A stretch of 27,467 nt of DNA from the IMG/VR virus record IMGVR_UViG_3300007734_000925, positions 1 to 27,467 of that record. The stretch is one strand, 5' to 3'. The notes below the pieces were generated by a model. It worked only from the letters and a program-made list of their open reading frames with translations. It did no database searches and was not told where the DNA came from. The stretch is from a virus. Within the stretch, counting starts at the first letter, position 1; the number at the start of each line of letters is the position of its first letter. Positions 4,168 to 17,374 of the stretch are shown here, piece after piece. A program made the position numbers and the translations under genes.

Positions 4168-4620
4168 ATGTCCGTGAACCAAGTCATCATCGACGGCATG
4201 GTGTTCGACCTGCCCACAATCGTGACCTCGCAGTCAGGAAAGCCCGTGGCGCGGTTCCGAGTGGCTCATTCGGCCGGAACCAAGAAGCCCGATGGCACCT
4301 GGGATAACCAGAGCCACTACTTCGACGTGACCGCAGTGGGCGAGGCTGGCGCGTGGGCAGCCGAGCATGTCAAAGAGCGATCGATCGTCGAGGTTACAGG
4401 CAAGCTGGAGCAGCGATCGTGGGTAGACAAGACCACCGGGCAGAAACGCTATGCCGTCGGCATCCTGGCGTTTCAAGCTCGCTTCGCTGACCGCTCCGTG
4501 CGGGCGCCTGCGGGCCCTTCTGGGGGCGTCCATGCCGGCGGGGGCGTCAGTACAGCGCAGAACGCCCAAGCGGGCGCAGGGGGCCGTCCTAGCCCCCAGG
4601 ATGATGACATTCCGTTCTAG
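4168..4620 (+). CDS. ssb: Single-stranded DNA-binding protein
   Basis: A 150-residue SSB. The first 108 residues form an OB-fold domain typical of bacterial and phage SSB: VNQVIIDGMVF, ARFRVAHS, HYFDVTAVGEAGAWAAEHVKE and IVEVTGKLEQRSW. A Gly/Ala/Pro-rich linker follows (110-143), then the acidic tip DDDIPF at 145-150 that recruits replication and repair partners. It coats single-stranded DNA during replication and recombination. ATG 4168 follows a GAGGGGG ribosome binding site by six bases, ten bases after the endolysin stop, so it appears to be carried on the lysis transcript. The TAG stop shares CTAG (4617-4620) with the stop of the leftward gene that meets it. Confidence 0.95.
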   Translation: MSVNQVIIDGMVFDLPTIVTSQSGKPVARFRVAHSAGTKKPDGTWDNQSHYFDVTAVGEAGAWAAEHVKERSIVEVTGKLEQRSWVDKTTGQKRYAVGILAFQARFADRSVRAPAGPSGGVHAGGGVSTAQNAQAGAGGRPSPQDDDIPF

Positions 4621-4847
4621 TACGCGTCGACGTCCGCAGCCGTGGCGAGGCGCATGCCGCGCCCTTGGCCGAGCATGATTTCGCGCTCGCCAGCGATGAG
4701 CCGCTCAAGGGCGTCCATCATGCCGGCATCGTCCTCGTTGTAGAACCGAATCGCGCCCAAGGTCAGAATCTCATCGATGTATGTCTCTCCGTCTGCGTTG
4801 ACGTCAAACACTGCGACCATTCGCCGCAAGTCGTTAGGGTAAATCAC
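4617..4847 (-). CDS. Small protein of unknown function
   Basis: A leftward 76-residue protein. GTG 4847 is preferred because GGAGG at 4859-4855 lies seven bases upstream, whereas the in-frame TTG at 4853 is only one base from it. The start is also overlapped as GTGA by the stop of a 16-codon ORF. The product is acidic and probably folded: VIYPNDLRRMVAVFDV, DGETYIDEILTLGAI, then a helix (DAGMMDALERLIAGEREIML) and a short tail. No family is recognised. Its TAG stop overlaps the SSB stop on the opposite strand. Codon use is ordinary for the window. A regulatory or host-interaction role is possible but unsupported. Confidence 0.65.
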   Translation of the reverse strand: MIYPNDLRRMVAVFDVNADGETYIDEILTLGAIRFYNEDDAGMMDALERLIAGEREIMLGQGRGMRLATAADVDAY

Positions 4848-4894
4848 GGCCAAACCTCCATAAGTACGAGACGTGTAAGAGCGGTGTAGTCCAT
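4844..4894 (-). CDS. 16-residue micro-ORF upstream of and coupled to 4847 gene
   Basis: A leftward ORF encoding MDYTALTRLVLMEVWP. ATG at 4894 is preceded by GGAG (4904-4901) with a six-base spacer, a good ribosome binding site. Its TGA (4846-4844) overlaps the GTG of the next gene as GTGA, so translation of that gene could be coupled to it. It may be a leader peptide, a microprotein or only a coupling device. Peptide existence is not shown. Confidence 0.4.
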   Translation of the reverse strand: MDYTALTRLVLMEVWP

Positions 4895-4940
4895 GGGATG
4901 CTCCGTTGACCCTGTGGCGGGTCAGTCAAGGTTGGAGGAT

Positions 4941-4965
4941 GCTCCCGCCGGGTTAGGGCGGGAGC
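4941..4965 (-). terminator. GC-rich hairpin between two leftward genes
   Basis: GCTCCCGCC (4941-4949) and GGCGGGAGC (4957-4965) form a perfect nine-base stem with a seven-base loop, starting five bases beyond the stop of the leftward 4971 gene. It has no uridine tract, so it may be a partial or Rho-assisted terminator or an mRNA-stabilising hairpin separating the two leftward genes. Confidence 0.5.
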
Positions 4966-4970
4966 GGGGC

Positions 4971-5174
4971 CTAGTTCTTGGTGATGATAACCCGCGTTCC
5001 GTCGGTCCGTTCCACCGTCGACTCGTGGGGCTCACCCCAGTTGAGCGTCGTGGTAGTCACGCACCGCAGCTCGGGGCCCATGTAGTCCGCGATCCGGCGG
5101 GCGACTTCACGGAGGCTAGCGCCGGTCGTGATGGTAGTTGTCAGAAGGTCAGAAGTGATCGTGTAGGTAATCAT
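4971..5174 (-). CDS. Small protein of unknown function
   Basis: A leftward 67-residue protein from ATG 5174. AAAGGAG on the minus strand lies seven bases upstream, which decides this start over the ATG at 5219. The product begins with a Thr-rich beta strand (MITYTITSDLLTTTITTG), has a basic amphipathic helix (LREVARRIADYMG), then two beta strands (RCVTTTTLNW and GTRVIITKN). Small alpha/beta layout; no family recognised. It is followed by a GC-rich hairpin and faces the rightward genes, so it probably belongs to a different expression class from the SSB and lysis genes. Confidence 0.6.
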   Translation of the reverse strand: MITYTITSDLLTTTITTGASLREVARRIADYMGPELRCVTTTTLNWGEPHESTVERTDGTRVIITKN

Positions 5175-5346
5175 GGCGGGCTCCTTTGCTCTGTGGCGAG
5201 CGGCTAGGGACACCGGCATTCCATCGGTCGACGGCTCCGATGTCCATCATTTTTTTGGGGCGATGCGGCGATTGTTCGTAACTCGCCGTGATTGCTCGGG
5301 GTAAATCGGGTGAACGGCTGACAGGGCAACTTGGAGCATGTCGGAA

Positions 5347-5619
5347 ATGTCCGTTTTGAGCGTTCTGAGCTTAAGTCAAGGTCACGGACTCGGCTCAGGA
5401 CGGGAGGACCGGAAGTGTAGAGAAAATACACACTCAAGGTGGGGAAGGATGACGGGCAGAAGTGAAGGGGGGGATAGATGACCGTCCGGTCACCATTTCT
5501 AACCAATGCCGGTTGCCTGGCGGGCGCCCTGACAGCTACCGGGCAAGGGCTCGTGCTCGGCTGTCCGGCATGCTCTGCAGTCCTTCTAGGTACTGAACAC
5601 GGGCGGTCAAAACGGACAT
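5347..5619. repeat. 13-bp inverted repeat, widely spaced
   Basis: ATGTCCGTTTTGA at 5347-5359 is the exact reverse complement of TCAAAACGGACAT at 5607-5619. The arms are 247 bp apart in the gene-poor region. Such pairs can be binding sites for one protein that loops DNA, or iterons in opposite orientation. Confidence 0.6.
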
Positions 5620-5705
5620 CGGGCAGAGGCTCCGTTCTGCTACTCGGGAAACCATCAATGGTTCTAGGCTGTTACGTACACGATCCGATAAGAGTCATTA
5701 TGTAA
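5478..5705 (+). CDS. Doubtful small ORF
   Basis: ATG 5478 follows AAGGGGGGGA by four bases and opens a 75-codon frame that begins MTVRSPFLTNAGCLAGAL and is hydrophobic and Cys/Gly-rich in its first half. The start lies inside the TGACCG/CGGTCA palindrome, so a regulator bound there would block it. Third-position composition is much flatter than in neighbouring genes and no family is recognised, so this may be a chance ORF in regulatory DNA. Confidence 0.25.
   Translation: MTVRSPFLTNAGCLAGALTATGQGLVLGCPACSAVLLGTEHGRSKRTSGRGSVLLLGKPSMVLGCYVHDPIRVIM
5479..5492. promoter_or_regulatory. Palindromic operator-like site
   Basis: TGACCG-TC-CGGTCA is a perfect six-base inverted repeat with a two-base centre, overlapping the start of the doubtful ORF. 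It is of the size bound by dimeric repressors. A partner protein is not known; the HTH-like and RHH proteins of this phage are candidates. Confidence 0.4.
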
Positions 5706-5909
5706 ACTCGGCGGGCTCGACGTGCTGTCACCAATGGTTACGGGCAGTTGTCTCTTCGGGCGGTGCATCATGGTGGGCGGCGCGTGGTGCGCCGTGCGTA
5801 GTTAGAAGGAGCGCACGCTATGCGGGGCGTGTGACGGGCTGGGCCTACAGCTCGACGCGGCACCCGGTCGCAGGGCTCGAGTTCGAGGGGGGCACCTGTA
5901 TAAAATCAG

Positions 5910-5990
5910 GTTCCGCCCCCTCCCACTCTTACCCCTCTTTTCGGTAGCTGACCTTCTCCCTCTCCCTTTCCTCCTCGCCCCTGCTTCCTG
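5910..5990 (+). other. Pyrimidine-rich tract next to TATAAAAT
   Basis: About 80 bases are almost entirely C and T on the plus strand; from 5952 to 5990 only three purines occur. Just upstream, TATAAAAT (5899-5906) is flanked by ACCTG and CAGGT inverted arms (5894-5898, 5907-5911). Mirror-like purine/pyrimidine tracts can form triplex DNA, and the TATA element with flanking arms could be an operator-covered promoter. No -35 element is evident. Confidence 0.4.
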
Positions 5991-6315
5991 CCGTGCTACG
6001 CCGTGCTCCTCACCAGCCCGAGCTTCGTCGAGGTGTTGCTGTCGGCTGCGACCTTCCGGCGGCTGTCTCTCTTGTTGCTGTGCTCGGGGCTCGGCTCGCC
6101 CATACGCCTGTGGCTGCGGAGGATCGGTGGCACCTGATCTCCACGTCGGAGATGAGCCGTGGTCTGGCTCCTGTTCCTCCCCTTTTAAAAGAAAGAGAGA
6201 AAAAACGGCGGGAACCCTCTCGGACTTCAACGGGCGGTGTAGCGGCTCCGTCAAGGCGGACGTCGGCCTGGGTACCCGGGCTGCCGGCTTCTGCTGGATC
6301 GGTGCCCTCAGCCCG

Positions 6316-6351
6316 TTGGGCTTTCGGGCCTGTTAAGTATAGTACTATAAT
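6316..6351 (+). promoter_or_regulatory. Promoter-like region with TATAGTACTATA palindrome
   Basis: TTGGGC (6316-6321) and TATAGT (6338-6343) lie 16 bp apart, and a perfect TATAAT occurs at 6346-6351. The two -10-like boxes share a perfect 12-bp palindrome, TATAGTACTATA (6338-6349), so the site reads as a -10 on both strands and could also be an operator. It is the best promoter candidate upstream of the rightward gene block at 6481, leaving a leader of about 125 bases. This is an AT spot in an otherwise GC-rich sequence. Confidence 0.5.
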
Positions 6352-6480
6352 TGCAACTCCTGGGCCAACGTGTGATTACGGGGAGTTACACGACAGCAAG
6401 GTGCTTGCAGAATAGCCCGTACTTCGGTGGCGCGTTTGTAAAGTAAATGCCCCTGAGCGTGGGTGGTGTAGGCTTTGGGG

Positions 6481-6870
6481 ATGAGCAAGACCACCCTGCA
6501 GCCCCCGGTGATTCCCGACGCGATTGCCCTTCCCCGCAAGGTGCCCGAGCAGTTCAGCAAGCTGCTGTCCGCCGCGCTGAAGTCGGGCAAGGCCCCCTCG
6601 CGGCACGAGCTGAGAGTGCGCGCCGCCCTCGACGTCGAAGAGGCGGTGCTCAACGCCGAGGCCTCCGGTGCCGTGGATGGAAAGGATGCCTACGCCGGAG
6701 CTTTGGCACTGGCGAAGATTCGGACCCAGCAGCTTGCCATGCTCTCGCCGCTCATGGTCGAGCAGACCGGGCATAACTTGGACGCGCTGCTCTCACTGGT
6801 CGAGGCGGCGCCCGAGCGCACAGGGCCCACGGACGACCTCCACGTCACGGTGAGAAAACGTACCGGGTAG
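6481..6870 (+). CDS. Alpha-helical protein of unknown function
   Basis: A 129-residue, largely helical protein. ATG 6481 is immediately preceded by GGGG with no properly spaced ribosome binding site; TTG 6475 is an alternative start with GGGTGG eight bases upstream. Helices: PEQFSKLLSAALKSG, RHELRVRAALDVEEAVLNAEA, GKDAYAGALALAKIRTQQLAML and VEQTGHNLDALLSLVEAA, ending in a basic tail (VRKRTG). It heads the rightward block with the packaging genes. Small helical proteins at this position include small terminase subunits, but no DNA-binding head is evident, so that assignment is only a possibility. Confidence 0.65.
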   Translation: MSKTTLQPPVIPDAIALPRKVPEQFSKLLSAALKSGKAPSRHELRVRAALDVEEAVLNAEASGAVDGKDAYAGALALAKIRTQQLAMLSPLMVEQTGHNLDALLSLVEAAPERTGPTDDLHVTVRKRTG

Positions 6871-16495: not shown

Positions 16496-17374
16496 ATGAT
16501 TCTGAATCGCAACATCAAGCGGCAGTGGAAGTCGCTGTTCTTCCCATGGCAGGTCTTCTCGTCCACGCAGAAGGTCGTCTCGGTCGGAGATGGAGGCGGG
16601 ACGAACGTCACGTCGTCGATGGCTAACTTCGTCCAGGCGGCGAACATCGGTGCCGAAATCAACTCGTCGGGGCTCTCTGGAATCAAAATCAATACCGCGA
16701 CCCATGCTGTCCGCCATGTCACGGCGCTGCCAATGGACCTCGACTACAGCAACCCCATGTACTTCAGGGTGCATTGGACGTCAGGCTCATCCGACACGGC
16801 CGATACCATTACGTGGAAGGTGACCCATGGGGCGGTAAGTCAGAATGTGTCCATCGTCAATGGGACGATCCCACGCCTGCTGACTACTCCGATCCCCGAG
16901 GATACTGTCCCGGTCGCGACGGCATACATCCACTGCGTGACCAGCAAGGGCACGCTTGCTCCGGCAGATACATTCGTCACGTCCGGCCGCGATGGAGTGA
17001 CGACCTCGGCGAGCGCCACATCCCACACGTTCACGAGTGCATCTGCTGCATTCTCTTCATCCGGCGTCATCACGGGCGACGCGTTCGTCTTCGGTGGCAC
17101 GGAATACGTCGTCTTGTCGGTAAGCACGACGACACTCGTGTTCGCCAAGGCTGACTCGTCATCGTTCAACCCAGGCGCCGCGACAGGGATCTCGTTCTCG
17201 ATTCGTCATCCCGGCATCAAGCCACAGCAGCCGACGAAACTGGCTGTCCAGCTTGCTGCCTTCGCATCGGGATTGTCCGAGGACAAGTTCTTCATCGGGC
17301 TCGAGGTGCTGTACGCTCCGCTCATTGGCACTGACTTGAATGCTGCCATGCCGGCGCTTCCGAGCGGGTGGTAA
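16496..17374 (+). CDS. Beta-rich virion protein with inserted module, paralogue of 2175 gene
   Basis: A 292-residue protein from ATG 16496, with AAGGAG five bases upstream. It shares DLDYSNPMYFRVHW (81-94), LLTTPIP (118-124) and LEVLYAPLI (near 269-277) with the 184-residue protein at 2175, in the same order. It has an additional module at about 160-238 (GVTTSASATSHTFTSASAAF, GDAFVFGGTEYVVLSV, LVFAKADSSSF) of Ser/Thr-rich beta strands. Its location directly behind the coat gene suggests a head decoration protein or an early tail-joining protein; this is inference from order. No known family is recognised. It follows a terminator, so its expression may depend on read-through. Confidence 0.75.
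   Translation: MILNRNIKRQWKSLFFPWQVFSSTQKVVSVGDGGGTNVTSSMANFVQAANIGAEINSSGLSGIKINTATHAVRHVTALPMDLDYSNPMYFRVHWTSGSSDTADTITWKVTHGAVSQNVSIVNGTIPRLLTTPIPEDTVPVATAYIHCVTSKGTLAPADTFVTSGRDGVTTSASATSHTFTSASAAFSSSGVITGDAFVFGGTEYVVLSVSTTTLVFAKADSSSFNPGAATGISFSIRHPGIKPQQPTKLAVQLAAFASGLSEDKFFIGLEVLYAPLIGTDLNAAMPALPSGW

Follow-up and report, generated by a model that had tools for sequence, protein, structure and literature searches.

The window analyzed here covers the whole of an IMG/VR record (27,467 bp) that is classed as linear and is probably a fragment. Its gene content is that of an uncultured, podovirus-like tailed phage. Genes for a GH25 lysozyme and an SSB lie in the left part of the contig, and the rightward gene order further on is a match to a phage Holliday-junction resolvase family followed by TerL, portal, capsid, and more structural genes. 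The proteins encoded at 2190-2729 and 16496-17374 share a stretch with 30% identity over 77 residues (E = 1e-6 for the pair), and the two may be duplicated virion genes. A gene-poor gap of 1.3 kb (1306 bp, 4.8% of the contig) lies about 3.3 kb upstream of TerL. The gap and the genes that flank it are as follows.

4617 to 4847, minus strand: second leftward gene, 76 aa, from the gene call; codon score of +0.49 on 4622-4850
4971 to 5174, minus strand: first leftward gene beside the gap, 67 aa; codon score of +0.39, no family match
5175 to 6480, unstranded: non-coding junction, the whole region, defined by six-frame codon scores, the period-3 signal, and negative Pfam, PHROG, and Rfam searches
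6481 to 6870, plus strand: first gene of the rightward operon, 129 aa; codon score of +0.39, no PHROG match

The gap lies between divergent transcription units, with a leftward gene start at 5174 and a rightward operon start at 6481. The motif AAAGGAG is found directly upstream of the ATG at 5174, and the gene at 6481 opens an operon that runs through TerL, portal, and capsid. A preliminary description of this DNA had stated that the region separates leftward from rightward genes. The divergence exists at the gap itself, but the leftward side consists merely of the two small genes at 4617-5174, to the left of which the SSB, GH25 lysozyme, and other genes are again rightward.

Coding capacity of the gap was evaluated using a codon model trained on the contig itself, in which trusted genes score +0.24 to +0.77 bits per codon. 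Every open reading frame in the gap has a negative score (-0.41 for 5204-5506 minus, -0.45 for 5802-6254 minus, and -0.39 for 5993-6415 plus, in bits per codon) and none matches a Pfam or PHROG family, on which grounds a hidden gene was rejected. The gene caller places a single weak 36-aa open reading frame in the gap. The earlier statement that the region has no convincing gene is therefore upheld, no conserved protein-coding gene was found, and the gap is non-coding. The flatter composition attributed to the region is evident in its period-3 signal of 1.7 compared to 6.9-61 in 18 of 20 contig blocks of 1306 bp. The other low values are 2.0 in a block overlapping the gap and 1.3 in the first block of the contig (1-1306), where the signal is almost nil although open reading frames are called there.

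The elements detected in the gap are listed by position.

5208 to 5245, minus strand: predicted leader hairpin of the leftward mRNA (-22.2 kcal/mol, z = -2.8)
5347 to 5362, minus strand: left arm of an inverted repeat (94% over 16 nt) with a GACA pair at a period of 9
5361 to 5402, plus strand: hairpin with an 11-bp outer stem, inside an 81-nt fold (-26.7 kcal/mol, z = -2.7)
5378 to 5477, plus strand: most purine-rich 100 bp of the contig (26% C+T, the contig minimum)
5479 to 5492, unstranded: operator-like palindrome TGACCG-TC-CGGTCA from the palindrome search
5604 to 5619, plus strand: right arm of the inverted repeat, CGGTCAAAACGGACAT, from the inverted-repeat search
5650 to 5663, unstranded: operator-like palindrome AACCAT-CA-ATGGTT from the palindrome search
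5872 to 5936, unstranded: strong mid-gap hairpin (minus strand, -37.1 kcal/mol, z = -4.1; plus strand, -31.2 kcal/mol, z = -3.0)
5911 to 6010, plus strand: most pyrimidine-rich 100 bp of the contig (82% C+T)
6271 to 6276, unstranded: GGTACC, the only copy in the contig
6335 to 6352, unstranded: imperfect 18-nt palindrome with a 12-bp perfect core at 6338-6349, overlapping a TATAAT at 6346-6351 (plus strand)

Two compositional features of the preliminary description are borne out. The pyrimidine tract at 5911-6010 is the maximum among 100-bp windows of the contig, and the AT-rich patches are reflected in the gap containing 37% of the top 1% of AT windows (50 bp) in the contig. The descriptions of palindromes and repeated words hold in part. 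Five palindromes have arms of at least 6 bp compared to 2.3 ± 1.6 in shuffled sequences, which is slightly higher than chance, and no arm reaches 7 bp. The repeated short words are mostly chance-like with one exception, a 13-bp perfect inverted repeat inside the arms at 5347-5362 and 5604-5619; among shuffled copies, 11-12% also contain inverted repeats of 12 or 13 bp. Each arm of the gap repeat contains one copy of AAAACGGACA, a word found nowhere else in the contig. One copy is within a pair of units with a 9-bp period; reading the minus strand from 5357 downward gives AAAACGGACATTTCCGACATGC, which contains two units 9 bp apart.

The TATAAT in the 6335-6352 palindrome is the only exact copy in the contig and lies about 130 bp ahead of the start codon of the rightward operon. 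This site is the most likely candidate, judged from its sequence, for a rightward -10 element and operator. No sigma-70-like promoter in the gap reaches 9 of 12 consensus positions, one looser match faces leftward, and no consensus -35 accompanies the TATAAT. A promoter at this position would consequently depend on an activator, on a different sigma factor, or on a host with different preferences. The word TATAAAAT is unique in the contig and is located at 5899-5906 on the plus strand, in and beside the loop of the 5872-5936 hairpin. The single GGTACC in 27.5 kb compares to about 6.7 copies expected at equal base frequencies, hinting at avoidance of the site.

Hairpin stability depends on the strand at the left edge of the gap. 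The 5208-5245 hairpin is about 34 nt upstream of the start codon at 5174 and is stable only as leftward RNA, the plus strand giving -13.1 kcal/mol with z = +0.6. A plus-strand terminator at 5208-5256 was considered and rejected: a run of seven T residues is present, but the plus-strand fold is no more stable than those of shuffled sequences. The mid-gap hairpin at 5872-5936 is stable on both strands and may be a transcription barrier that separates the two transcription units.

The nearest annotated phages by portal and capsid infect Arthrobacter, Microbacterium, and Cellulosimicrobium, with about 22-34% identity in local matches. The nearest uncultured contigs have TerL, portal, capsid, and several of the following genes in common with the window, and their main proteins are 31-38% identical. 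No relative was found in sequenced bacterial genomes or prophages by searches with the portal alignment and the capsid protein. Single queries with TerL, the 6481 gene, the 4971 gene, and the resolvase returned no close relative in the collections searched, and the SSB retrieved distant SSBs only. The gap DNA has no relative in phage records, and its best match in the fetched loci has E = 0.12.

The junction upstream of TerL was compared across uncultured relatives (L153-L190 and G001-G014), in which genes were called with a self-trained codon model. A typical relative has a leftward block, a gene-poor stretch, usually one leftward and one rightward gene, and then TerL. Gene-poor stretches at the junction between the leftward block and the TerL operon measure 1352 + 773 bp in G001, 647 + 419 in G002, 579 in G006, 1043 in G010, 1014 in G011, and 640 in G014, and the range is 0.6-2.2 kb among relatives with enough upstream sequence. 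G007 and G008 have no long gap, and TerL adjoins other leftward genes. A long gap upstream of TerL is thus common in the group and recurs in distant relatives, so the window gap fits the pattern by position and its location is not peculiar to this contig. Because an extra leftward gene separates the gap from TerL in most relatives, the junctions correspond in position rather than by demonstrated homology. The 6481-6870 product has no detectable kinship to the helix-turn-helix (HTH) gene upstream of TerL in relatives, and no orthology was detected between the flanking or possible ribbon-helix-helix (RHH) genes of the window and the Arc-like and HTH genes of relatives. L171 and L173 differ from the window in that TerL has the capsid and tail genes on its other flank, encoded on the opposite strand.

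Some of these junctions contain short tandem repeats. Units of CTGACA(A/G)AA or close variants are arrayed at the junctions of G001, G009, G010, G014, L156, L157, and L161 (some records overlap), and CGGACA-containing units at those of G002, G011, and L172. All arrays have a period of 9 bp with units of the form C(T/G)GACAnnn, and not every relative carries them. The arrays of G010 and G014 directly adjoin the gene for an Arc-like repressor candidate, and the product beside the G010 array matches PHROG 582 with E = 6.7e-6 and Pfam RHH_5 only below the cut-off. RHH repressors bind tandem short operators, which makes an operator role for the 9-bp repeats plausible.

AAAACGGACA is also present in the 9-bp-period junction arrays of one subgroup of relatives. 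A further match in L118 is inside an open reading frame and is probably due to chance. When the contig is scored with a matrix built from the repeats of the relatives, the top three sites for one form of the motif are in the gap. Gap sites take second, fourth, and fifth place for the two-unit form, and the best gap score is reached by 2.8% of shuffled gaps, in a comparison where the 9-bp motif was chosen after viewing several repeats and the gap sites overlap or copy each other. The absolute motif scores of the gap sites fall within the range of array-free relatives. The link between the window and the repeats of its relatives through AAAACGGACA is suggestive only.

The relatives also contain an 11-bp element, GGGTACCTTRG, whose placement is strict. 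A single copy is present in each of 14 loci (L154-L162, L165, L167, L170, L179, and L190) that represent about nine independent groups, and the element is absent elsewhere among 283 loci apart from copies of the same records. It is always 1.0-1.8 kb upstream of TerL in a constant orientation, and a TATAT...GACATC-like stretch is often found about 30 bp downstream. The element is possibly a packaging, promoter, or recombination site. The window contains no exact match, and matches with two mismatches are no more common than in shuffles. The GGTACC at 6271 was rejected as a version of this element.

We interpret 5175-6480 as probably being the divergent transcription-control region of a podovirus-like phage. 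Its gene-free sequence, its position and orientation between the two units, its sequence elements, and the recurrence of a gap at this place in relatives are the observations from which we infer promoter, operator, and RNA functions, including the insulating role of the central hairpin. One or more leftward promoters would drive the genes at 4617-5174 and produce an mRNA whose leader bears the stable hairpin. One or more rightward promoters, most likely at about 6335-6352, would drive the operon from 6481 through TerL, portal, and capsid. Regulators encoded by the phage or the host would bind the palindromes and the AAAACGGACA inverted repeat, and the 5872-5936 hairpin may keep the two transcription units apart. 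A length of 1.3 kb is long for promoters alone, and a leftward side of just two small genes also argues against this interpretation. The preliminary description had suggested a master control region, an origin, or structured RNAs; of these, the best supported is a control region separating leftward from rightward genes, and there is little positive evidence for the other two. An origin, a packaging site, and an abundant non-coding RNA are each compatible with promoters in the gap and could coexist with them.

A replication origin, alone or with promoters, in which a DNA-binding initiator opens an AT-rich patch, is unlikely, although it comes first among the alternatives. The length of the non-coding stretch, its AT-rich patches, its strand-asymmetric tracts, and the inverted pairing of short repeat units would suit an origin, and an SSB gene is nearby. 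Cumulative GC skew climbs steeply across 5000-5750, a trend that cannot be interpreted genome-wide because the contig is a fragment. DnaA-box-like sites with up to one mismatch are absent from the gap, however, and no initiator or polymerase gene was recognized in the window. Tandem repeats in the gap are low-scoring only, with no strong iterons and one weak inverted pair of 9-bp-period units. That pair figures in the next alternative, also unlikely, that an uncultured phage group has a conserved control site upstream of TerL and the gap is a rearranged version of it, in which 9-bp repeats bound by a phage repressor would switch leftward and rightward transcription, replication, or packaging. 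The inverted pair of 9-bp-period repeats, about 260 bp apart, could close a DNA loop in such a site.

It is improbable that the gap is a pac/cos packaging site or terminus, as might be proposed from its location 3.3 kb upstream of TerL and from the family-restricted GGGTACCTTRG at the junction of relatives. Fourteen of 32 related contigs (L153-L190, L086, and L088) end 1.0-2.0 kb upstream of TerL, near the junction. The window is without GGGTACCTTRG and does not end at the gap, and the contig ends of the relatives could be either genome ends or assembly breaks. The same is true of an apparent repeat of about 98 bp, read by eye near both ends of G003 and finishing at GGGGTACGTAGTACC; an exact prefix-suffix test of G003 finds no terminal repeat because the first bases differ.

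Abundant production of one or more structured non-coding RNAs is improbable to the same degree. Three hairpins have z-scores of -2.7 or lower, and non-coding regions are highly transcribed in Rhodococcus phage WC1 (PMC10986025). Local hairpins fall below -3 at three places, but the two strands of the gap have mean folding z-scores of -0.30 and -0.25, similar to those of control windows, which argues against one large structured RNA. No Rfam family reaches the gathering score in the contig or in ten relatives, an E-value limit of 5 yields one chance-level match outside the gap, and no known RNA or tRNA was found in the gap. Least likely of all is a decayed or unrecognized gene or a functionless recent insertion, for which the flanking genes without close relatives in the collections searched would fit a mosaic region, but no open reading frame in the gap retains a family trace and relatives have a gene-poor stretch at a similar location.

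The divergent control region favored here is a control junction of the ordinary phage kind, and no demonstrated feature sets it apart. Such junctions determine the order in which phage genes are expressed, and the 1.3-kb region is a defined target for transcript mapping. The relatives yield the more specific discovery, namely an 11-bp element with strict placement and, beside a probable repressor gene, short tandem repeats.

A literature search on bidirectional promoters in podoviruses returned only the paper on WC1, and one on the origin transcript of phage c2 gave nothing usable. WC1 is a phage of an actinobacterium whose intergenic non-coding loci are highly transcribed (PMC10986025). The window likewise contains an intergenic non-coding locus; transcription was measured in WC1, whereas the window locus is described here from its sequence. 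Cluster O mycobacteriophages (Corndog and relatives) have divergent promoters in an AT-rich intergenic region, and the palindromic repeats of their genomes are suggested to bind dimeric regulators (PMC4351075). The window resembles them in having an AT-rich intergenic region that separates leftward from rightward units close to where the structural operon begins, a likeness that claims no sequence relation. SigA-like promoters are strongly predicted and mRNAs are leaderless in Cluster O (PMC4351075), whereas the window has no consensus -35 and about 130 bp separate its candidate -10 from the start codon. The uncultured relatives (L153-L190 and G001-G014) have a gene-poor stretch at a comparable place, flanked by a leftward block and the operon that contains TerL. 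Between the gap and TerL they usually have genes for an Arc-like repressor candidate and an HTH protein, and many have GGGTACCTTRG; the window junction differs in having neither a detectable homologue of these genes nor the element. The left end of Arthrobacter phage Jasmine (Jasminevirus) differs in its gap of about 470 bp as annotated, its Lsr2-like leftward gene, and a portal and capsid 23-27% identical to those of the window, but its layout is that of the window, with a leftward gene, a gap, and a rightward operon leading to TerL, portal, and capsid.
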